In this document: positions 33,263 through 49,906 of the stretch, one piece after another | Layout: every line of letters begins with the position of its first letter | Numbering within the stretch: the stretch's first letter is position 1 | NCBI GenBank assembly: GCA_003265895.1 | Contig: QFBS01000007.1 | Coordinates: 1-53,928, forward strand | DNA: 53,928 nt | Direction of reading: 5' to 3' | Origin: Candidatus Marinamargulisbacteria bacterium SCGC AG-410-N11 | GTDB taxonomy: Bacteria; Margulisbacteria; Marinamargulisbacteria; GCA-2716485; AG-410-N11 | Made by a program: the position numbers and the translations under genes | Notes under the pieces: model-generated | Databases searched by the model: none | Told to the model about the DNA's origin: nothing | The model's input: the letters and a program-made list of their open reading frames with translations, nothing else

Positions 33263-33850
33263 ATGAAAAAAGCAATAGCTCTTATTAGTATTTTAGCAGC
33301 ACTTACAGTGCCAGTTTTAGCAAATACTAGCACAACAGGATTAGGGATTCACTTAGGACAATCATTTGGATATTCTCTAGATGAAAACGTTAAAAATTCA
33401 AATGCAAGATCATTTGATGTAACGTTTAATACTGCAGGTGGAACTACTTTTTATGTTCACAATGAATTTGGTGATTTTAATATTAGAGATGGTCAAGGCG
33501 GAAACGTAGTAGAGCACGTACAAGGTACTGAAACTGTACATGGTGTTGGTGTTTTAGCTAATGTTGCTAAAACAAATGTTAAATTGAACGTTTTAATTGG
33601 GTCTGCAACTACTGAAATAGCTGCTGGTCAAGGTGCTGCTAACATTGCAGGTGGTGCGGCATATTCTTCAACTAACCCAATTGCAGACTTAGGTGCTGGA
33701 TATCATGTTAACTTTGGTAATGCAAAATTAGCAATGGATATCGCTTACAGACATCATTTACTTAAAGATAATATTGATTTAAGAAATAATGAAAGATTAA
33801 ACAATAAAAGTGGAATTAGATTTTCAGCAACTGTAGGGTACGGTTTCTAA
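33263..33850 (+). CDS. small outer-membrane beta-barrel protein, paralogue 1
   Basis: The 195-residue protein has a signal peptide with cleavage after AALTVPVLA. The mature part is built of alternating Gly/aromatic strand sequence suited to an eight-stranded barrel, and it ends in GYGF with a terminal Phe recognised by the BAM machinery. It shares with its neighbours the blocks 'NPIADLGA', AYRHHLLK and NNKSGIRFSATVGYGF. No named family was recognised. It is the first gene of a two-gene unit ending in a terminator after paralogue 2. Ala, Val and Thr codons are mixed, unlike paralogues 2 and 3. Confidence 0.85.
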   Translation: MKKAIALISILAALTVPVLANTSTTGLGIHLGQSFGYSLDENVKNSNARSFDVTFNTAGGTTFYVHNEFGDFNIRDGQGGNVVEHVQGTETVHGVGVLANVAKTNVKLNVLIGSATTEIAAGQGAANIAGGAAYSSTNPIADLGAGYHVNFGNAKLAMDIAYRHHLLKDNIDLRNNERLNNKSGIRFSATVGYGF

Positions 33851-33874
33851 AATAATTTATAATATTTAAATAAG

Positions 33875-34479
33875 GGAGAAAATAAAATGAAAAAAAGTAT
33901 AGCATTAATCGCATTATTAGCAACGTTAGTAGCACCAGTAGTAGCAGCTACAGGAACAGGTATCGGAATAAATATCGGAACATCATATACATACAACTTA
34001 AAGTCTCAGTTTAAAAATGGACAAGCAACAAATATCGCATTAGAGTTTAATACAAGAGGCGGATCTACTTTCTACATTCAAAACGAGAATGGAACATGGA
34101 GAGGTGAATCTGGTAAATCAAATATTACAGGTTCTGAGAGTGTAACAGGATTAGGTGTTAGAGTACCAGTAGCTGACTCAGTAGGATTAGACGTGATGAT
34201 TGGAAACGCAACAACAAATTTCCAAGATGAAGCAGCAGTAGACAACGATAATTTCGGAACAGCAGCAACTGAAGAGTCATCAACAGATCCGATTGCAGAT
34301 TTAGGAGCATATGTAGAAAGAACATATGGAGATGTAAGTGTAGCAGGAACTGTATCATATAGACATCACATGTTAAGCAATGAGATTCAGTATGCTAAAC
34401 AAGGTGTTAATGGAAACACAGTATTAAACAACAAAAGTGGAGTTAGAGCAGGCGTAAGAATTTCTTACTCATTCTAATT
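33875..34479 (+). repeat. 605-bp direct repeat, copy A
   Basis: This segment, from the Shine-Dalgarno of paralogue 2 to two bases past its stop, is repeated at 34708-35312. By eye only two base differences were found, both synonymous (TTT/TTC and GTA/GTG). The flanking sequences on both sides are different. Confidence 0.93.
33887..34477 (+). CDS. small outer-membrane beta-barrel protein, paralogue 2 (identical to paralogue 3)
   Basis: The 196-residue protein has a signal peptide cleaved around APVVAA, strand-rich mature sequence with STDPIADLGAYVERTYG and SYRHHMLSNEI, and a C-terminal RISYSF ending in Phe. Its amino-acid sequence is identical to the product at 34720. Codon choice is distinctive: Ala is nearly always GCA, Val GTA, Thr ACA, and ATC is frequent, unlike the other barrels here. 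The start follows paralogue 1 by 36 bp with its own ggagaa site, and the unit ends in the hairpin at 34498. Confidence 0.87.
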   Translation: MKKSIALIALLATLVAPVVAATGTGIGINIGTSYTYNLKSQFKNGQATNIALEFNTRGGSTFYIQNENGTWRGESGKSNITGSESVTGLGVRVPVADSVGLDVMIGNATTNFQDEAAVDNDNFGTAATEESSTDPIADLGAYVERTYGDVSVAGTVSYRHHMLSNEIQYAKQGVNGNTVLNNKSGVRAGVRISYSF

Positions 34480-34497
34480 CTCTAAGCGTTGATCGTT

Positions 34498-34530
34498 AAA
34501 AAGCCGCACAAAATTGTGCGGCTTTTTTTT
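34498..34530 (+). terminator. Rho-independent terminator of barrel unit 1
   Basis: The stem AAGCCGCACAA/TTGTGCGGCTT with a two-base loop is followed by a run of nine or more T. It is G+C-rich in the stem against very A+T-rich surroundings, about 20 bp after the paralogue 2 stop. Confidence 0.92.
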
Positions 34531-34533
34531 TAT

Positions 34534-34563
34534 TTGATTATAGATATGTAAATTTGTTATGAT
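34534..34563 (+). promoter_or_regulatory. promoter of barrel unit 2
   Basis: TTGATT (34534-34539), an 18-bp spacer and TATGAT (34558-34563) begin directly after the T-run of the preceding terminator. The same boxes in the same place relative to a terminator occur before paralogue 4, which supports function. The predicted leader is about 150 nt. Confidence 0.65.
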
Positions 34564-34637
34564 GAAAAAAATTAAAATGTTTAATGCAATATATTTTGGG
34601 TATACTAAATTTAACCAAATATAAATTAATTAAAAAC

Positions 34638-34654
34638 TTTGAAAGGGGTGATAA
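34638..34654 (+). promoter_or_regulatory. conserved leader element (copy 2), extended Shine-Dalgarno-like
   Basis: TTTGAAAGGGGTGATAA in the leader of paralogue 3, about 66 nt before the start codon. The core matches copies 1 and 3 base for base while the flanking leader sequence differs. Confidence 0.6.
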
Positions 34655-34707
34655 TTTTAATTAAAAGTCAATAACTTAAAAAATCTATAAAATTATCAAA
34701 AACTTAA

Positions 34708-35312
34708 GGAGAAAATAAAATGAAAAAAAGTATAGCATTAATCGCATTATTAGCAACGTTAGTAGCACCAGTAGTAGCAGCTACAGGAACAGGTATCGGA
34801 ATAAATATCGGAACATCATATACATACAACTTAAAGTCTCAGTTTAAAAATGGACAAGCAACAAATATCGCATTAGAGTTCAATACAAGAGGCGGATCTA
34901 CTTTCTACATTCAAAACGAGAATGGAACATGGAGAGGTGAATCTGGTAAATCAAATATTACAGGTTCTGAGAGTGTAACAGGATTAGGTGTTAGAGTGCC
35001 AGTAGCTGACTCAGTAGGATTAGACGTGATGATTGGAAACGCAACAACAAATTTCCAAGATGAAGCAGCAGTAGACAACGATAATTTCGGAACAGCAGCA
35101 ACTGAAGAGTCATCAACAGATCCGATTGCAGATTTAGGAGCATATGTAGAAAGAACATATGGAGATGTAAGTGTAGCAGGAACTGTATCATATAGACATC
35201 ACATGTTAAGCAATGAGATTCAGTATGCTAAACAAGGTGTTAATGGAAACACAGTATTAAACAACAAAAGTGGAGTTAGAGCAGGCGTAAGAATTTCTTA
35301 CTCATTCTAATT
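34708..35312 (+). repeat. 605-bp direct repeat, copy B
   Basis: This is the second copy of the segment at 33875-34479, covering the ribosome site and the whole coding region of paralogue 3 but not the promoter, the distal leader or the terminator. Confidence 0.93.
34720..35310 (+). CDS. small outer-membrane beta-barrel protein, paralogue 3 (identical to paralogue 2)
   Basis: The 196-residue product is identical to that of 33887-34477, including the signal peptide and the terminal Phe. It forms a single-gene unit with its own promoter (TTGATT/TATGAT), long leader with the GAAAGGGGTGATA element, and terminator. The identical protein under a separate promoter suggests dose increase or independent control. 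The coding copy is nearly free of synonymous drift, so the duplication or a gene-conversion event is recent. Confidence 0.87.
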   Translation: MKKSIALIALLATLVAPVVAATGTGIGINIGTSYTYNLKSQFKNGQATNIALEFNTRGGSTFYIQNENGTWRGESGKSNITGSESVTGLGVRVPVADSVGLDVMIGNATTNFQDEAAVDNDNFGTAATEESSTDPIADLGAYVERTYGDVSVAGTVSYRHHMLSNEIQYAKQGVNGNTVLNNKSGVRAGVRISYSF

Positions 35313-35330
35313 TAATAAACCATAAATTAA

Positions 35331-35367
35331 AAAAACCACACACATTAATGCGTGTGGTTTTTTTTTA
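35331..35367 (+). terminator. Rho-independent terminator of barrel unit 2
   Basis: The stem AAACCACAC/GTGTGGTTT has a loop that contains CATTAATG, followed by a long T-run, about 20 bp after the paralogue 3 stop. The stem sequence differs from the unit 1 terminator, so it was not part of the duplicated segment. Confidence 0.9.
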
Positions 35368-35368
35368 T

Positions 35369-35397
35369 TTGATTACACATATTTTGTTTGATATGAT
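35369..35397 (+). promoter_or_regulatory. promoter of barrel unit 3
   Basis: TTGATT (35369-35374), a 17-bp spacer and TATGAT (35392-35397) directly follow the terminator T-run, the same arrangement as before unit 2. The predicted leader is about 130 nt. Confidence 0.65.
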
Positions 35398-35460
35398 TTA
35401 AGTATTAAATGAAAATTAACTCTTTAAATAAAGAGAAATATTTGAAAATTAGAATAAAAA

Positions 35461-35477
35461 TTTTGAAAGGGGTGATA
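35461..35477 (+). promoter_or_regulatory. conserved leader element (copy 3), extended Shine-Dalgarno-like
   Basis: TTTTGAAAGGGGTGATA lies 57 nt before the start of paralogue 4. Only this core, and not the neighbouring leader sequence, is conserved with copies 1 and 2. Confidence 0.6.
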
Positions 35478-35533
35478 TTTAAAAGTAAATATCTTTCTAT
35501 TTCTTAAAGAAAAAAAATCAAGGAGAATCGATA

Positions 35534-36112
35534 ATGAAAAAATCTTTAGCATTATTAAGTATATTATCCTGTCTAGCATTGCCAGTAGTAGCTAGTACAG
35601 GTATTGGTATTGGAATTGACTTAGCGAGCAATTACCAATATAACTTAGAAAAATCTTTCAAAAATTCAATGGCTAACTCTATATCTTTGAATTTTAAAAC
35701 TAACGGTGGAAATGTTTTCTATTTAAGAAACGAAACAGGTTCTTTTAGTGGTGAACACGGAAGAGCTGTAGCTACTGTTGATGAAGGTACTTTCGGATTA
35801 GGTGTTAGAGCTCCTATTTCTAAAAATATTGGTGTTAATGTTTTCTTAGGAAAAGCAAATACCAAGTTTACAAACGCTGCTAATAATGGAGACTCATTTG
35901 GTACTGCTGCATATTCAGAAACTAATCCTATAATTGACTTTGGTGCTTATGGTACAAAATCTTATGGTGATGTAAATGTAGGTCTAGATGTAACTTATAG
36001 ACATCATGCATTAAAAGAAGAAATTCAAAATACAAATGCTGGTGGACAAACAGAATTTATTAACAACAGACATGGTTTAAGAATTGGTCTTCGAGTAGGC
36101 TACGGATTCTAG
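35534..36112 (+). CDS. small outer-membrane beta-barrel protein, paralogue 4
   Basis: The 192-residue protein has a signal peptide cleaved near LPVVAS, strand-type mature sequence with TNPIIDFGAYGTKSYG and TYRHHALKEEI, and a C-terminal GLRVGYGF. It shares the family blocks with paralogues 1-3 at clearly diverged identity. Start follows aaggag. It is the first gene of a two-gene unit with its own promoter and leader element. Confidence 0.85.
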   Translation: MKKSLALLSILSCLALPVVASTGIGIGIDLASNYQYNLEKSFKNSMANSISLNFKTNGGNVFYLRNETGSFSGEHGRAVATVDEGTFGLGVRAPISKNIGVNVFLGKANTKFTNAANNGDSFGTAAYSETNPIIDFGAYGTKSYGDVNVGLDVTYRHHALKEEIQNTNAGGQTEFINNRHGLRIGLRVGYGF

Positions 36113-36153
36113 ATAATTGTTTAATTTAAAAATTAATTTTTAGGAGAGAAAAT

Positions 36154-36708
36154 ATGAAAAAAAGTATAGCTTTAATTGCAATTTTAGCTTGTCTTGTAAC
36201 ACCATTACTTGCAAGAACTGGTTATAGTATTCTATTGTCAGGTGCATACAATTATAATTTAACAACTGACATCGAAAATGGTAGCTCACAAGCTATCGGT
36301 GTACAGTTTTCTGCAAAAAATGGTATGAAACTATACATGCAAACAGAAATGGGAGCATTTAATTTACAAGATGGTGACACTCACCGATCAGGTAATGAAG
36401 TTGTTAATGGTGTAGGGTTAAGAATACCTTTAGGAAAACAATCTGGTTTAGGACTAAATGCTTTAATTGGAGCTACTCAGTTAACTACTAGAAATGCAGC
36501 AAACAATGCTGCTGATACAATTCAAACAGCTCCTTTAGCTGATCTAGGATTTTATCTTGAAAGAAAAGTATCTGACTTAACTATCAGTTTAGATGCTGGC
36601 GTTAGATTAACTAATCTAAGTCGAAGAATTAACAGTGATGCTGCTTTTAATAATATTAAAAACAAGCATGCTGTAAAAATTGCAGCTAGAGTTGCTTACG
36701 GTTTCTAA
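36154..36708 (+). CDS. small outer-membrane beta-barrel protein, paralogue 5
   Basis: The 184-residue protein has a signal peptide ending near TPLLAR and a C-terminal VAYGF. The family block is present in the form APLADLGFYLERK. The YRHH motif of paralogues 1-4 is replaced by VRLTNLSRRI, so this copy lacks the paired His. It follows paralogue 4 by 41 bp with its own taggaga ribosome site and is closed by the terminator at 36734. Confidence 0.82.
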   Translation: MKKSIALIAILACLVTPLLARTGYSILLSGAYNYNLTTDIENGSSQAIGVQFSAKNGMKLYMQTEMGAFNLQDGDTHRSGNEVVNGVGLRIPLGKQSGLGLNALIGATQLTTRNAANNAADTIQTAPLADLGFYLERKVSDLTISLDAGVRLTNLSRRINSDAAFNNIKNKHAVKIAARVAYGF

Positions 36709-36733
36709 ATATAATACAATTTAGAATTAATAC

Positions 36734-36768
36734 AAAAGGCTGTGCTTTATGCACAGCCTTTTTTTTTA
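36734..36768 (+). terminator. Rho-independent terminator of barrel unit 3
   Basis: The stem AAAGGCTGTGC/GCACAGCCTTT has a four-base loop and is followed by nine or more T, 25 bp after the paralogue 5 stop. Confidence 0.93.
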
Positions 36769-36829
36769 CTATAAAAAATTTATATTATCAGTTAAAATAT
36801 AATATATATTAAAATTTAAGGAAAAATTA

Positions 36830-37396
36830 ATGATTTTAAGAATTACTTGTTTATTTATATTTTTTATTATTAGTACTCAATCTATGGCAATTTCATTAAC
36901 TGGTGGACTACATTATGAATATTTATTAAAAAGTATAGAGAATAACTCTAAAGGTTATTTTATAAAATATAATCTTAAAAGAAATAATAAGCAAAGTTTA
37001 CATATATATACTGAGTATAATGTTAAGCAATTTTTTATTGACAGTACTAATATAAATACAAATTCATTATTCCTGGGAGCTGGAGTTACAACTAAGTTTA
37101 ATAATAACTGGGAATATACTTCAGTTTTCGGTATTTCTCATACACATCTTAATGGAGATTTTACTAATAATATAAGATCCAATGAAGAACAAATTACATC
37201 GCCTTTCATTCAATTAGGAGTAAATTACATTATACCAACTAAAACTAGAAGTAAGGCAAAGATTGGTGTTAATTTAAGAAGGCAGATCCAGTCTAAATCT
37301 ATTACAATTGATGATTCCACAAAAGTTGAACAATCAAGTTCTTATAAATTAAATGACGATACTAGCTTAATAATGCATGTATCTGCTGAATTCTAA
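36830..37396 (+). CDS. small outer-membrane beta-barrel protein, divergent paralogue 6
   Basis: The 188-residue protein has a signal peptide (LFIFFIISTQSMA), strand-like mature sequence and a C-terminal MHVSAEF with terminal Phe. It retains only the general frame of the cluster: a block SPFIQLGVNY in place of PIADLGAY and LRRQIQSKSI in place of the YRHH helix/strand. It has no leader element and no strong terminator after it, and lies 60 bp beyond the unit 3 terminator. Membership of the family is inferred from position, length and pattern. Confidence 0.72.
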   Translation: MILRITCLFIFFIISTQSMAISLTGGLHYEYLLKSIENNSKGYFIKYNLKRNNKQSLHIYTEYNVKQFFIDSTNINTNSLFLGAGVTTKFNNNWEYTSVFGISHTHLNGDFTNNIRSNEEQITSPFIQLGVNYIIPTKTRSKAKIGVNLRRQIQSKSITIDDSTKVEQSSSYKLNDDTSLIMHVSAEF

Positions 37397-42972: not shown

Positions 42973-44991
42973 TTAAAGATTGTATTTTATAGAAGTAGAT
43001 GGTTTTGTAGAATTACTTAATTGATCAAAGTTTAGTTTTGGATAAGTTTCAAAAGATGAATTTAATTCTAGTAATCCTGTTTGGTAATCTTCTTCAATAA
43101 AGGAAGTTTCCATTAAGTTGAGAGTTTTATCTTCCATTAAAAATCGACTATGTTGCGTAGTCATTGAGTTCGTAGATGATGAGAATGATTTCGTTTGTTG
43201 CGGTTTAAATATAAATAAATTTAATTTAGCTCGAGTAATTGCAACATATAACAACCTAAGTTCTTCCTGTTCTTTTTCATTATTATCAAAACTTTTGGAG
43301 CTAGGTAGATAACCATCGATAATTGATATAATAAAAACCGTATTCCATTCAAGACCTTTTGCAGAATGAATTGTTGTTAGTGTTAAAACAGAATTATCAT
43401 TGGGATTAGTGGATAAAGAGTCAATAGGATCGAGAGTTAGTTCTGTAATAAAATCTTCTAATAAAGTATAACGAGATGCAATTGTTTTGAGATTGTTTAA
43501 ATCCAAACTACGTTTTAAATAATCATCATATTTTTTTTCAAAATATGGTAAATTAAGGTCAAAAACTTTTTCAAATAACTCTGTTACAGAAGCGGGTGAC
43601 TTTATGCTGTTATTAAAAAAAGTAAATAATTTATTTAATTCGGAGAAGAACTTTTTAGATTTATATTTATTGAGTAATTGATTTATAGATTGGTTATTTA
43701 GATTAGGAATAATATTTAATAATTCAGAAACAGTCTTAGGTCCTACACCTTCTATAAGCATGAGTACTCGAGACCAACTTATAATATCTTTTGAGTTTGA
43801 GATTATTTTAAAATAAGCCATTATATCTTTAATATGTGAAGCTTCTATAAACTTACTTCCTCCAACTTTAATAAATGGAATATCCGACTTCTTTAATTCA
43901 ATTTCTAAATCATTAGAATGCCAACTGGATCTCATTAGAACGGCGATATCAGAAAGCGAAGTTCCTTGGATTAGTAGGTCTTGAATCTTTTGAACAATAA
44001 ATTTAGCTTGATCCCATTCATTTTTTGATTCTATATAGAATGGTTTTTGTGTAGATTTAAAATCGCTATAAAGAGATTTAGAAATTGCGGAAGAATGAAA
44101 CTTAATAACTTCATTAGACAGATCTAAAATAGGTTGAACACTTCGGTAGTTTTGTTCTAATTTAATAATAGTGGTATTTTTAAATTGTTCAGAAAAATTT
44201 AAAATATGACTGATATTAGCACCTCTGAAAGAGTAGATACTTTGACAGTCATCTCCTACGGCCATTATATTTTGTTCTTTAGTTAACAAATTACTCACAA
44301 TATCTGCCTGAATATTATTAGTATCTTGATATTCATCGATCATAACATAACGATAAGAATTTTGAACAAAATCTTGAACTTCTTTATGCGTTAATAATAA
44401 CTTAGAAAATGATAGTAAGTCATCGTAATCAAAAACTGAAAGTTCCATTTTTCTAATTTTATACTGATTAAAAATAGTAGTAATTAATTCAATAGCATTA
44501 ACAAATTGAGGATAATTATCTATTAGATAACTTTCTAACGAAGATTCTGTATTAAAACAGTGAGAAAGTAAATTAGAAAGTGTACTTTTATTTGGTAAAT
44601 CTATAGTTGAAGAAACATAGTCTTTACGAATTAAATTAATAAGATCTTCTGACTCAGATCGATCAAAAATTGAAAAGGAGTTTGAGTAATTAATTAAGTG
44701 ATGAAATCGTTTAATAAGACTATGACAAAAAGAATGAAAAGTACCTCCAGAAACATATTGACATTTAGGGTTACTAAGTTTGGATGCTCGAGTAAGAATT
44801 TCGTTAGCTGCTTTACGAGTGAAGGATAGTAGCAGGATACTATTAGGAGAAATACCATCATCAATAAGTCTTGCAACTCGGTATACTAATGTTTTTGTTT
44901 TACCAGACCCAGCTCCTGCAATAATAAGCGCAGGTCCGTTATTAAACATAACAGCCTTGAGTTGATTTGTATTGAGAGTACTAAAATCCAT
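42973..44991 (-). CDS. pcrA: UvrD/PcrA-type superfamily 1 DNA helicase
   Basis: This is a 3'-5' ATP-dependent DNA helicase for repair and replication-fork maintenance. The 672 residues have the Q motif (LNTNQLKAV), Walker A (IIAGAGSGKTKTLVYRV), motif Ib/II with MIDEYQDTNNIQADIV, motif III AVGDDCQSIYSFRGA, motif IV LEQNYRSVQPIL, motif V LTTIHSAKGLEWNTVFI and motif VI LRLLYVAITRAKLNLFI. It is about 50 residues shorter than PcrA and lacks much of the UvrD C-terminal tail. UvrD and PcrA cannot be told apart here; no Shine-Dalgarno was found before the ATG. Confidence 0.93.
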   Translation of the reverse strand: MDFSTLNTNQLKAVMFNNGPALIIAGAGSGKTKTLVYRVARLIDDGISPNSILLLSFTRKAANEILTRASKLSNPKCQYVSGGTFHSFCHSLIKRFHHLINYSNSFSIFDRSESEDLINLIRKDYVSSTIDLPNKSTLSNLLSHCFNTESSLESYLIDNYPQFVNAIELITTIFNQYKIRKMELSVFDYDDLLSFSKLLLTHKEVQDFVQNSYRYVMIDEYQDTNNIQADIVSNLLTKEQNIMAVGDDCQSIYSFRGANISHILNFSEQFKNTTIIKLEQNYRSVQPILDLSNEVIKFHSSAISKSLYSDFKSTQKPFYIESKNEWDQAKFIVQKIQDLLIQGTSLSDIAVLMRSSWHSNDLEIELKKSDIPFIKVGGSKFIEASHIKDIMAYFKIISNSKDIISWSRVLMLIEGVGPKTVSELLNIIPNLNNQSINQLLNKYKSKKFFSELNKLFTFFNNSIKSPASVTELFEKVFDLNLPYFEKKYDDYLKRSLDLNNLKTIASRYTLLEDFITELTLDPIDSLSTNPNDNSVLTLTTIHSAKGLEWNTVFIISIIDGYLPSSKSFDNNEKEQEELRLLYVAITRAKLNLFIFKPQQTKSFSSSTNSMTTQHSRFLMEDKTLNLMETSFIEEDYQTGLLELNSSFETYPKLNFDQLSNSTKPSTSIKYNL

Positions 44992-45198: not shown

Positions 45199-48100
45199 AT
45201 GTTTTTAAAAAGGTTTTTTGTTTTTCTTTTAGTATTAACATTATTCTTTGTTAATAAGCTGTGTATATTGGGAGATGATTTAGTATTTAATTTAAAGCCA
45301 GACCCAGTAATGATAGGTCAAAAATTACATGTTTCTTTAATTTCTGATGTAGAGTTAAATGGCGTAGATATTGAAATATCAAATGGAAAGAAAATTAAGT
45401 TAAAGAAAGTAAATGATAAACTATTTAATTTTAACTACAAAATAGGTCTCAATGAAAAACCTGGAAATTATAACGTGTCAATTATTTTATCGACAACAGA
45501 TGGCCAAAAATTAAAACTACCTAATACATCTTTTCAAGTTATTAAAAAGCCAACATTAAGTAAGTCATCCAAAAGTGTAGAAGTTAATACAAAGAGTTTC
45601 TTTGATAATTCCAAAACGTCTAATTTAAACATAAAAATTGATGAACTTGAGCAAAATGTTGATAACTTGGAACAAGAAAAGCAAAATTTAAAAAAGAAAA
45701 TAAAAAATTTAAAAAATAATATCAATAATATGAAGAAAAAATTAGCTAACGAAGATTTAATTAAGCAAAAAGAGGAAGAGTTAAAAAGATTAGAGCAGCA
45801 GTTAAAGAAGCAGCAAGAAGAATTAGCAAAACAATTAGCAAATTTAAAAAATAAATTAAAAGATTTAAATGCAGAGAAAGAAAGAATTAAAAAGCAGTCG
45901 GAATTACTTTCTTCATTAGAGTCAAAGTTAAAAGATCAAAAGTCTAACTTAGATTTAAAATCTAAGGAACTTACTAAGAAGAGTTTTTTGGCAGAAGAAA
46001 AAGAAAACTACTTATATAATAAACAAACAATCTCAGAACAGAGAGAGAGTAACATTACAAAAAAAGAAAAGGCCTTAGTATTGTTAGAACAGGAAATTTC
46101 ATCAAAAAATAATGAGTTAGAAAGTATTAAGGCGAAACTAATAACACAACAAGGAAATTTAGAAAATTCAAAACAGCAAATCGAAAATGAAAAAAATGAA
46201 ATTAGTAAAGAGAAAATTTATTTAGAACAAGTATCGGAAGGTATCAAGAGTGAACAAAGTAAATTAGTAGAGCTAACCTTAGAGTTAAAAGAAAAGCAAG
46301 ACGAATTTGAACAAGTAAAAGTTGCAAATATGTTAGAAACGGAAAAGAAAGAATCCGCAATTTTAGAAAAACAAAATCAATTAGATGGACTACAAATATT
46401 AATGGCGAATGCTAGTGATAATTTAAAGAAATTAGAATTTGAACAACAAAATAAAAGTATTGAGTTAGAAGAGAGAGTCAAAAATTTTGAGATACAAAAA
46501 GTTAAGTTCGAAAAAAATATGAATACGATTTCAAAACAAAAACAATTAATTGTAAATTTAGAAAAAGAGTTACAAATTAAATATGATTTATTAAAGTCTC
46601 TAAATAGTTGGATTCAGAATCAAATAGGAGATTTGAAATTAGAGTATAAGAAAAATAATAAGCAAAACTCTGATTATTTAAATAAGTTTGATGAAAAATT
46701 TCAGCAACTAGAAGGGTTAACACGTTTAATAGAAAATAGAGCTCAAAACTTAGAGTCATATAACAAAGACCTTCAAAGCGAAACAATTTTAAAGGATTTT
46801 GAAATAGAGTCATTAAAAAGACCACATTATAGGTATGCTTTTTCACCATTTTTAGGAATGAGAGGGGTATCTAGCAGTTCTCAAAATGGAGCTGAGGGTG
46901 GGTTAAGATTAGTTACTTTTTATAATAAAATGTTTTCGTTTCAAGGAGGAGTCTCTTTATTTAGTACACAAAAAAAGGAGTCTAGTTTAATTAAGCAACA
47001 GGAACATATTTTATATAATATATCTACATTATATGATTTTAACCCAGGGGAAAAAGCACGCTTTTATTTATTAGGAGGGATAGAGGGTGCTTTAAATGGA
47101 AACCGAAAAAAAATTGGATTATGTTCTGGGGTTGGGTTTAAGTATTTTATCAACCCAAAAATAGTAACTCGATTTGAAATAAAGTATAGTAATGAATTAT
47201 CTGCTACGATTGGTTTTGAAAATCATATTTCGCCTATTTTTAATAAAATTAAGAATAAGCTTACACAAGAAAAAATTAAAACTATTTCAGAAGTAGATCA
47301 GTTTTCTTCAAGAAATTTAGAAGGTATAATATCAGTTCCAGAATCAGTTTTAATTTTTAAGAAGAATAATGTTAAGTTGCAAGATACATTACAACACTGG
47401 TCTTATTTAGATGTTCAGTCTGTCTTAAATTTAGGTTTAATGGATCCCAAAGTTATTGGCTCAGAAAGATTATTTGATATTAACTCGTCAATAAATAAGG
47501 CTGATTGTTCTAAAATATTAAGTCGTTTAGCCAATATTGAAGATTTATTAGTAGTGAAGCAGGTACCTATTTCAATTAGTTTTGTAGGTGAGAATAGTCA
47601 AAATAATTTAATATCAGTATTAATTCTTGATTCTGAAAACAATATTATTAAAACATTAGCTAAAAATGAAAGAGTTTTATCTAATAAGGTAAAGTATATA
47701 TGGAAATTAGATCAAAAGAGTTTAAATACAGGTAAATATAGAGTGGTACTTAATGTAAGCTCTAATTTATTAAAAGTTGATGAAAATAAAAAATATACGA
47801 TTAGTGAAAATAGTATTTTGAGTGAAGTTAAAACAATAGAGGTAAAAGAAGTAAATAAGCCATCTTTATCTTCTGTATTTTCAAATCCTGGGTTTTCTGA
47901 TATTCCAAAAGATTTTCCAGGTAGTGAATATATTTTTGAATCAGTTAAACTAGGTATTTTTCAAAAACCAATTATAAAGATTAATAAGAACGACTCGATA
48001 AGTTTTAATCCATATGAAGAAATGAAAAGAGTAGATTTTATGGTTTGTGTTACAAAAGTATTACTTCACTTTGGAGCTTCCTTAAAGCCGGTTAAAGTAG

Positions 48101-48309
48101 ATTTTACGCCATACAAAGATTGGAATACTATAAATAATGATAAAATGGCATATTTAACAACATATATAGTGGAGCTAGGGTATGGAGGAGATGATCAAAA
48201 ACGTTTAAGACCAAATGATTTAATAACACGAGCTGAAGTTGCTACCATTATAAATAGAGTGTTAAAGTGGAAAGATAATAAGCAGTTGATTTCTATTAGT
48301 CAGAATTAG
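45199..48309 (+). CDS. coiled-coil / beta-barrel / SLH-domain envelope protein
   Basis: The 1036-residue protein has a signal sequence (FFVFLLVLTLFFVNKL). An Ig-like N-terminal domain (about 28-118) is followed by a very long coiled coil rich in Lys, Glu and Gln (about 143-540). A strand-rich segment (about 541-685) starts YRYAFSPFLGMRG and contains FYLLGGIEGALNG and FKYFINPKIVTRFEI, like a small outer-membrane barrel. The end holds an SLH-like repeat (about 725-785, LQDTLQHWSYLDVQSVLNLG), a FlgD/FLN-like beta domain (about 788-880), and two further SLH repeats (from about 895 and 966: SDIPKDFPGSEYIFESVKLG; RLRPNDLITRAEVATIINRV). A strong Shine-Dalgarno precedes the ATG. It probably bridges envelope layers. 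Confidence 0.8.
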   Translation: MFLKRFFVFLLVLTLFFVNKLCILGDDLVFNLKPDPVMIGQKLHVSLISDVELNGVDIEISNGKKIKLKKVNDKLFNFNYKIGLNEKPGNYNVSIILSTTDGQKLKLPNTSFQVIKKPTLSKSSKSVEVNTKSFFDNSKTSNLNIKIDELEQNVDNLEQEKQNLKKKIKNLKNNINNMKKKLANEDLIKQKEEELKRLEQQLKKQQEELAKQLANLKNKLKDLNAEKERIKKQSELLSSLESKLKDQKSNLDLKSKELTKKSFLAEEKENYLYNKQTISEQRESNITKKEKALVLLEQEISSKNNELESIKAKLITQQGNLENSKQQIENEKNEISKEKIYLEQVSEGIKSEQSKLVELTLELKEKQDEFEQVKVANMLETEKKESAILEKQNQLDGLQILMANASDNLKKLEFEQQNKSIELEERVKNFEIQKVKFEKNMNTISKQKQLIVNLEKELQIKYDLLKSLNSWIQNQIGDLKLEYKKNNKQNSDYLNKFDEKFQQLEGLTRLIENRAQNLESYNKDLQSETILKDFEIESLKRPHYRYAFSPFLGMRGVSSSSQNGAEGGLRLVTFYNKMFSFQGGVSLFSTQKKESSLIKQQEHILYNISTLYDFNPGEKARFYLLGGIEGALNGNRKKIGLCSGVGFKYFINPKIVTRFEIKYSNELSATIGFENHISPIFNKIKNKLTQEKIKTISEVDQFSSRNLEGIISVPESVLIFKKNNVKLQDTLQHWSYLDVQSVLNLGLMDPKVIGSERLFDINSSINKADCSKILSRLANIEDLLVVKQVPISISFVGENSQNNLISVLILDSENNIIKTLAKNERVLSNKVKYIWKLDQKSLNTGKYRVVLNVSSNLLKVDENKKYTISENSILSEVKTIEVKEVNKPSLSSVFSNPGFSDIPKDFPGSEYIFESVKLGIFQKPIIKINKNDSISFNPYEEMKRVDFMVCVTKVLLHFGASLKPVKVDFTPYKDWNTINNDKMAYLTTYIVELGYGGDDQKRLRPNDLITRAEVATIINRVLKWKDNKQLISISQN

Positions 48310-49906
48310 CTAAAATATGATCAATAGAACTTTTAGAAATAAATTGTTTATAATGTTTAATTTCTGATTGATAGCGGATCAAAGACCAGTTTAATTCCTT
48401 TTGAAATAAGTTAGCAACTTGATTTAAGCATTGTATACCATTATTTTTTGAAAATGAAATTTGAGTTCGTCGTCGCAGAAAATCAGTGATCGTTTTACAA
48501 AACTCGTATCGAATTGAGTAGATCACTTCTCCACAATAATGATCCGTTCCAATTAATTTAGATTTGTAATCATTATTTTCTGAGAATACATTTAAAACAT
48601 TTCTATATTGACTACCATAGAAATGGATAATATGAGAATAAAGATTTTTATCGATATTAAATTGATCAGAATCTTTTTTGAAATTTAATTGAATATACTG
48701 ATTAATATTCTTAATGTATCCCCCATAAGAGTTTAGATTTTTAGACATCGGGATAAACGTATCATTTGGTCGAGCTACAGATATAATTTTTTTTGCCATT
48801 TCTTCAGTCATGCTTCTAAACGTTGTATATTTTCCACCAATAATTGAAAAGAGGTTGTGATTTTGAATAATAGAATGTTCGCGAGAGGAAGTTCCAATTT
48901 TTTTATTAGATACAAGTAAGGGTCTTAAACCAGCAAAAGTAAAAAAGATATCATGATATGTTAAATTAAGATTCGGAACGTAATAATTAACTTGTTTAAT
49001 TAAGTACAAGACTTCGTCTTTAGTTATATTAATAGAGTCCAAGTTATCATGATATAAAGTATCTGTTGTTCCGATTATTGAGTAGTTGTCCCATGGAATA
49101 ACAAAAAATATTCGATTATCATTTGTAGAAATAACAATAGACTCTTTAATTGGGATCGGTTTAGTTACCAAATGAATTCCTTTACTTAAATTTAAATAAT
49201 TAGGAAGTTTTTTATTGAAAAGCTTTAATAGTTTATCCGTCCATGGCCCTGTACAACTGGCATAGTATTTAGCCTTTATACAAAATTTTTTGCCTGAGAT
49301 ATTATCTAGACATGATAAATGAGAAATTTTAGAATTATTCGTATGTATTTTTATTACCTCACTATAAGATAATAGAGTCGCACCATATAGAGATGATTCT
49401 TGAGCAATTTCAATGCAGAGCTTAGCATCATTCATAATAGCATCATAATATTTAGCAACTCCGTTTAATTTAGATTGATTTAAACAAGTAGATAACTTAC
49501 CTAAAGTTTTAGATGTAAAAAAAGAATGGTTGGGTAACGTTTTTTGAAAACTTAACATGTCGTACAAGAGCATACCCATTTTAAGAATAAAGTTAGAGAG
49601 GATTCCTTTATAGACAGGAAATAAAAAAGGCATAGGTTTTACTAAGTGAGGAGCTGAATTGAGAAGTAAGTGTCGTTCTCTTAGCGCTTCAAATACTAAT
49701 TTAAAGTGAGCTTGTTTTAAATATCTTAATCCTCCATGAGCAAGCTTTGATGACAAGCTACTAGTTCCATAACCAAAATCATTTTTTTCTATCAGAATAA
49801 CCTTAAGGTTTCTTAAAGAAAGTTCTCTAGCCAAAGATACACCATTAATACCACCACCGATAATGGCAACATCATATTCTTGATTATATTGAGTAGAATC
49901 GTTCAT
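48296..49906 (-). CDS. glpD: aerobic-type glycerol-3-phosphate dehydrogenase GlpD
   Basis: GlpD oxidises glycerol 3-phosphate to dihydroxyacetone phosphate with FAD, passing electrons to quinone at the inner membrane. The 536 residues begin with the FAD motif DVAIIGGGINGVSLARELS and the family signature YGTSSLSSKLAHGGLRYLKQ, then SCTGPWTDKLL, WDNYSIIGTTDT, FAGLRPLL and SIIGGKYTTFRSMTEEMAK, followed by the C-terminal GlpD cap domain with the RYEFCKTITDFLRRRTQISF segment. It overlaps the end of the convergent SLH protein gene by 14 bp. The product feeds TpiA. Confidence 0.94.
   Translation of the reverse strand: MNDSTQYNQEYDVAIIGGGINGVSLARELSLRNLKVILIEKNDFGYGTSSLSSKLAHGGLRYLKQAHFKLVFEALRERHLLLNSAPHLVKPMPFLFPVYKGILSNFILKMGMLLYDMLSFQKTLPNHSFFTSKTLGKLSTCLNQSKLNGVAKYYDAIMNDAKLCIEIAQESSLYGATLLSYSEVIKIHTNNSKISHLSCLDNISGKKFCIKAKYYASCTGPWTDKLLKLFNKKLPNYLNLSKGIHLVTKPIPIKESIVISTNDNRIFFVIPWDNYSIIGTTDTLYHDNLDSINITKDEVLYLIKQVNYYVPNLNLTYHDIFFTFAGLRPLLVSNKKIGTSSREHSIIQNHNLFSIIGGKYTTFRSMTEEMAKKIISVARPNDTFIPMSKNLNSYGGYIKNINQYIQLNFKKDSDQFNIDKNLYSHIIHFYGSQYRNVLNVFSENNDYKSKLIGTDHYCGEVIYSIRYEFCKTITDFLRRRTQISFSKNNGIQCLNQVANLFQKELNWSLIRYQSEIKHYKQFISKSSIDHILANSD

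Follow-up and report, generated by a model that had tools for sequence, protein, structure and literature searches.

How less-studied diderm bacteria fix the distance between their outer membrane and their wall is an open question, and a single gene of Candidatus Marinamargulisbacteria bacterium SCGC AG-410-N11 touches on it. The window, i.e., the whole stretch of DNA analysed here, comprises 53,928 nucleotides of contig QFBS01000007.1. It contains a frame that a first-pass annotation had described as a composite envelope protein, in which an Ig-like domain, a very long coiled coil, a barrel-like segment and SLH repeats are united in one chain. What such a chain might do between the layers of the envelope is addressed in this study.

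Gene and domain organization

The frame, its domains and its neighbours, as obtained by computation, are as follows.

42973-44991, strand opposite to the gene: UvrD-type helicase frame (named by eye)
45199-48309, plus strand: whole gene, one intact frame from ATG to stop, 1036 residues plus stop
45199-45276, plus strand: signal peptide, residues 1 to about 26, recognized from the sequence, with a presumed cleavage site
45277-45549, plus strand: Ig-like beta-sandwich, residues 27-117, seven strands in the model
45613-46818, plus strand: coiled coil, residues 139-540, based on a period of 3.50, model helices (137-180, 185-377 and 385-537) and length conservation
46825-47232, plus strand: predicted 8-stranded OmpA-type barrel, residues 543-678, based on Pfam OMP_b-brl, the structure model and structural matches
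47320-47358, plus strand: two short strands before SLH1, residues 708-712 and 716/718-720, packed into the FlgD-type domain by the model
47371-47556, plus strand: SLH repeat 1, residues 725-786, based on model, structural match and profile
47557-47856, plus strand: FlgD-type Ig domain between SLH1 and SLH2, residues 787-886, based on Pfam in relatives and a profile against the PDB
47890-48078, plus strand: SLH repeat 2, residues 898-960, based on model and structural match
48079-48282, plus strand: SLH repeat 3, residues 961-1028, based on alignment and structural match
48296-49906, strand opposite to the gene: GlpD-type frame (named by eye), overlapping the end of the gene by 14 bases

The gene stands alone between opposite-strand genes on both sides, and accC-, nusB-, ribE- and ribBA-type frames (names by eye) lie further downstream. 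In the genomes G005 and G006, a relative of the protein is directly followed by the same series, and therefore the window protein and these two relatives are orthologues by position too. Promoter-like sites were not in excess (19 versus 22.3 in shuffles), and a search for a terminator at the gene found none.

The domain order proposed in the first-pass annotation was borne out: Ig-like domain (27-117), coiled coil (139-540), barrel (544-677), SLH1, a beta domain, SLH2 and SLH3 follow each other in one chain. The predicted folds derive from two AlphaFold models of moderate confidence, each based on a 7-row alignment: a tail model of residues 521-1036 (mean pLDDT 74.2, pTM 0.50) and a whole-chain model (mean pLDDT 68.2, pTM 0.33). 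Single-sequence Pfam signals are weak, with both OMP_b-brl (E 1.2e-4; 22.8 bits versus a cut-off of 28.7) and SLH (E 0.017) below their curated cut-offs. The start with a signal peptide is the same in all five full-length relatives. In the whole-chain model, the Ig-like domain (27-116) aligns to an N-terminal domain of 5i0e (Z 10.9, rmsd 1.8 over 85 residues); significant sequence matches for this domain were found neither in Pfam nor in the PDB, a search of the PDB with the Ig profile included. NCBIfam matches of the protein to SMC and Rad50 and PDB matches to keratin and GCN4 were rejected as coiled-coil similarity.

A predicted OmpA-like barrel with two presumably periplasmic flanks

For residues 541-690, which had been proposed to be a barrel, structure prediction gives a closed OmpA-like barrel rather than a soluble beta-sandwich. 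The tail model contains eight long strands in a row at 544-675. In the whole-chain model, the barrel matches OprF (4rlc; Z 18.1, 119 aligned residues, 1.7 A) and OmpA (1qjp; Z 17.6), in the tail model both OprF and OmpA are matched with Z 14.2, and Foldseek recovers OmpA at E 1e-5. The best structural matches of the segment are transmembrane 8-stranded barrels, both natural and designed. Strand amphipathicity gave a mean difference of 2.67 for the barrel versus 2.18 for the soluble FlgD-type domain and thus does not separate the two. In the 8-stranded barrel of OmpA, both ends are periplasmic by the usual rule. Since the strand number is even, the same rule would place both flanks of the barrel, the stalk as well as the SLH part, in the periplasm. 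We infer membrane insertion and this topology for the 1036-residue protein.

An SLH domain split by a FlgD-type domain

The segment 725-785 had been read as an SLH repeat in the first-pass annotation, and this was confirmed by the model, by a structural match to Sap and by a profile. A profile of barrel and tail searched against the PDB retrieved the SLH domain of Sap (E 3.2e-9) and FlgD (E 6.4e-4). In the tail model, 174 of the 178 residues of Sap (3pyw) are matched (Z 18.2), from 725 to 1027 and across the insertion, which suggests that the repeats together make up a single SLH domain despite the FlgD-type domain after the first. Among the aligned members, Y995-G996-G997 and T1010-R1011-A1012-E1013 of SLH3 are invariant; the TRAE motif is found in SLH3 only and is degenerate in SLH1 and SLH2. 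Presumably, the SLH domain binds a wall polymer.

FlgD_ig is recognized by Pfam in 4 of 7 family members and has no match in the window protein itself. In the tail model, matches to macroglobulin-type domains cover residues ~704-887, and the two strands before SLH1 therefore seem to complete the FlgD-type domain. By way of these strands, the SLH and FlgD-type domains would seem to interlock in the model. The split SLH set had been regarded as unusual. The split itself was confirmed and is uncommon, but it is not unique: a FlgD-type profile, built from the seven proteins of this family, detected those seven and three more in which the domain is flanked by SLH on either side (two from G009 and one from G031), and it found the domain in none of 40 other SLH-bearing frames. 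Two of these three (in G009 and G031) carry the SLH-FlgD-SLH unit after a different barrel (barrel kind judged by eye, with a weak UPF0164 match in G031), and one (in G009) carries it without an evident barrel. The SLH survey drew 39 frames from the 94 SLH rows of the class and one from the barrel-tail profile search; in 25 of these 40, the listed SLH match falls into the final quarter of the frame. A further weak FlgD-type match (L041, G011:C40:82893-83093) lies inside an open frame of 10112 residues and thus in a giant protein; the tether occurs in this genus too.

A coiled-coil stalk of near-constant length

The coiled coil of about 400 residues noted at first sight proved to span 139-540, i.e., 402 residues. 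Over 138-540, the hydrophobic period is 3.50, with a power of 3.55 versus a shuffle mean of 1.01, and none of 300 shuffles was as high. The period is strongest at the ends of this region; taken alone, the inner sub-windows 260-400 and 330-470 fall short of significance (their level was reached by 43 and 107 of 300 shuffles, respectively). Proline is absent from 119 to 541.

Measured between aligned flanks, the stalk has 402 residues in the window protein, G005 and G006, 409 in G011 and G015, and 578 in G026. As G005 and G006 belong to one genus and G011 and G015 to another, these values represent four independent lineages (402, 402, 409 and 578), and in three of the four genera the length is constant to within one heptad. 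Compared with G005 and G006, the stalk of the window protein shows 23 and 20% identity, respectively, and not a single indel over 402 residues. The best ungapped offset is zero in all thirds of the stalk for G005, and in the first and last but not the middle third for G006. Indels occur at similar identity in the Ig linker, the barrel, SLH1, the FlgD-type domain and SLH2. We read a gapless stalk between segments that do carry indels as a sign of selection on stalk length and register. Against G011 and G015, gaps amount to 28 residues in and 21 out, a net difference of one heptad, with not every single gap being a multiple of seven.

It had also been suggested that the coiled coil reaches over tens of nanometres between layers. 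This may hold: as a continuous parallel rod, fully extended, the stalk would be about 60 nm long, but in the AlphaFold monomer 256-493 fold back as an antiparallel hairpin that is matched by Smc arms (Z 14.2-14.5). With this hairpin, the stalk would be shorter. Oligomerization of the stalk and its role as a spacer are presumed here.

Relatives and combination of modules

Matches to the whole protein were obtained in 11 of the 56 genomes searched, its own included, and in six of these the full architecture is present (its own, G005, G006, G011, G015 and G026). The five others with full architecture belong to the class and share 23-26% identity with the window protein. The barrel-tail profile matched in 12 of 27 class genomes, in seven over its whole length. 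A relative in G012 consists of a signal peptide, the barrel and SLH-FlgD-SLH-SLH, without Ig domain or coiled coil.

Across the phylum, the profile of the Ig domain matched in 20 of the 74 genomes, in nine of them strongly. In G031 and G023, Ig domain and coiled coil share a frame, whose end is overlapped by a second one that encodes a large barrel-like protein lacking a signal peptide. At the overlap lies a run of ten A in G031 (L021, near 8546) and of nine A in G023 (L023, reverse strand, near 1484), where the frame shifts by -1 in one case and by +1 in the other; these runs could reflect programmed slippage, phase variation or an assembly error. In G035 and G053, an Ig match and a large-barrel match occur in a single frame of 1046 and 1030 residues, respectively. 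Besides L113, seven more large-barrel proteins open with a signal peptide and apparently the same Ig domain, as judged by eye. When these seven were searched with the Ig profile, L117 alone (0.002) fell below 0.01, L123 (0.26), L124 (1.6) and L119 (5.9) were weak, and for three no match was listed. This set comprises plus-strand frames of at least 600 residues, with 4 of the 12 loci (L114, L118, L121 and L122) left out. The closest relative of the Ig domain without coiled coil (L125:1134-1991, minus strand, G062) is fused to an apparent M23-type wall peptidase (named by eye). From these combinations across the phylum, the Ig domain, alone or with the stalk, emerges as a module that precedes barrel-like proteins, and in this class it was joined to a small barrel with an SLH tail.

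Envelope of the class

The class is diderm. SLH was found in all 27 class genomes and Omp85 in 25. Matches of the type of CsaB, the maker of the pyruvylated polymer expected as an SLH ligand, occur in 22 of 27, in one of them above the curated cut-off. The genome of the window gave no match for either Omp85 or CsaB; it is 55.74% complete, so that an absence from it carries little weight. OmpA_C proteins are present in 22 of 27 class genomes, including this one, and the 1036-residue protein is therefore not the only possible tether.

Other candidate envelope proteins were noticed in the same genome. Six tandem frames of 184-196 residues at 33263-37396 of the window (plus strand) are probably a family of small outer-membrane proteins; frames 2-5 are 35-44% identical to the first and the sixth 14%, and this last one has a weak OMP_b-brl match (E 0.008). 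A small protein (L026:6901-7398, minus strand) carries a single SLH repeat along with a helical region and, at its C-terminus, a hydrophobic segment; it resembles a minimal Omp-alpha, and similar frames of ~130-190 residues occur in many class genomes. A 778-residue protein (L025:5993-8326, plus strand) combines an N-terminal PorV/UPF0164-like signature (by eye) with two C-terminal SLH repeats, and frames like it are common in the class.

Proposed function and alternative readings

Taken together, the protein is probably a tether between outer membrane and peptidoglycan that has two periplasmic arms, an SLH foot and an additional coiled-coil stalk. In this model, the protein would be exported by Sec and its 8-stranded barrel would enter the outer membrane. 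With its C-terminal arm, the three-repeat SLH domain with the built-in FlgD-type Ig domain, it would bind a wall polymer and tie the outer membrane to the peptidoglycan, a task that falls to OmpA_C in OmpA and to the N-terminal SLH in OmpM. The N-terminal arm, a coiled coil of near-constant length with an Ig-like tip, might oligomerize the molecule and might act as a spacer or reach a second partner, be it the wall, the inner membrane or another envelope protein.

Three other readings have to be weighed. If residues 543-678 were soluble, the protein would be a periplasmic scaffold of SLH and coiled coil that is not inserted in the outer membrane. The OMP_b-brl score below cut-off and the indifferent amphipathicity test would agree with this, but eight long consecutive strands, top structural matches that are transmembrane barrels, and the G012 relative, in which the barrel directly follows the signal peptide, make it very improbable. 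A surface fibre deserves somewhat more attention: coil and Ig tip, perhaps together with SLH, would be displayed outside with the barrel as a mere anchor, in the manner of autotransporters or S-layer proteins. Coiled coils and Ig-like domains are frequent in surface adhesins and SLH is the classic S-layer anchor, yet we consider this display unlikely, as an 8-stranded OmpA-type barrel of a single chain is too narrow for a passenger and has periplasmic ends by the usual rule, and as the relative of the Ig domain in G062 is joined to what appears (by eye) to be an M23-type peptidase, a periplasmic kind of enzyme.

The remaining reading concerns the stalk itself. It could form an intramolecular antiparallel hairpin of about 20 nm that returns the Ig domain to the vicinity of the outer membrane, and tethering would then be left to SLH alone. 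This is a serious if minority possibility: besides the Smc-like fold of 256-493 in the monomer, the model helices break at 181-184 and 378-384, and the large insertion of G026 lies near the second break. On the other hand, residues 378-384 contain neither proline nor glycine, one period of 3.50 runs over 138-540, a homo-oligomeric coil is out of reach of a monomer prediction, and for long helices a match at Z near 13 can reflect no more than a common arrangement.

Within the two-armed tether that we favour, a bolder idea can be put forward only tentatively, and it may well prove wrong: the barrel might separate an SLH foot that grips the wall from a length-measured coiled-coil ruler with an Ig tip, and the ruler would set the distance between the outer membrane and a second layer. 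Across three genera, this ruler measures 402 residues or 402 plus one heptad, at a stalk identity of a fifth to three tenths. As wall grip and spacer would lie on opposite sides of the barrel, the two functions would be physically separate, and each could be deleted or resized alone. A stalk of near-constant length predicts that the width of the periplasm tracks stalk length, including in the lineage whose stalk is 176 residues longer. The constancy of stalk length is the part most worth following.

Comparison with known tethers

In a search of the literature, mostly open and judged by titles, no description of the order Ig-coiled coil-barrel-SLH was found; the rarity assigned to it in the first-pass annotation is supported. 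A paper on Margulisbacteria/Marinamargulisbacteria, searched for S-layer, SLH and outer membrane, contained no mention of them. Like OmpA of Escherichia coli, the protein has a predicted 8-stranded barrel and, behind it, a presumed wall-binding domain at the C-terminus. Unlike OmpA, it carries SLH instead of OmpA_C (PF00691, absent from a Pfam scan at E up to 5) and an arm of Ig domain and coiled coil ahead of the barrel. With its three repeats predicted to form one three-pronged domain (Sap 3pyw, profile), the foot resembles other SLH domains, and its insertion qualifies as a FlgD-type Ig domain by Pfam in relatives and by the profile match to FlgD in the PDB.

With OmpM and SlpA (PMC10628300; PMC9388160), it shares an outer-membrane barrel, SLH, a coiled-coil stalk and the expected role as tether; OmpM has been argued in PMC10628300 to be perhaps an ancestral tether. 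It differs from these proteins in domain order, in having 8 strands versus a large porin-type barrel, and in having stalk and SLH as separate arms. An outer-membrane beta-barrel is predicted here too (OprF, Z 18.1), but SLH is not N-terminal, lying at 725-1028, C-terminal to the barrel, and the coil (139-540) precedes the barrel with SLH behind it instead of linking the two. With the barrel separating SLH from the coiled coil, the protein is not a member of the OmpM/SlpA group.

A closer parallel is offered by Deinococcus radiodurans, for which PMC9388160 describes two SlpA-like proteins in which SLH is N-terminal, a coiled coil takes the middle and the barrel is of the 8-stranded OmpA-like type; they are suggested there to connect the outer membrane with the inner envelope. 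The same three elements are combined in one chain here; by that account, the Deinococcus proteins differ in the positions of SLH and coil, whereas the window protein has an Ig-tipped coil in its N-terminal part and a FlgD-split SLH behind the barrel. Omp-alpha of Thermotoga likewise joins a long coiled-coil stalk to SLH, but has its SLH at the N-terminus, a terminal transmembrane helix and no barrel in the chain. The components of the proposed tether are thus known already, and it is their order that appears to be new.
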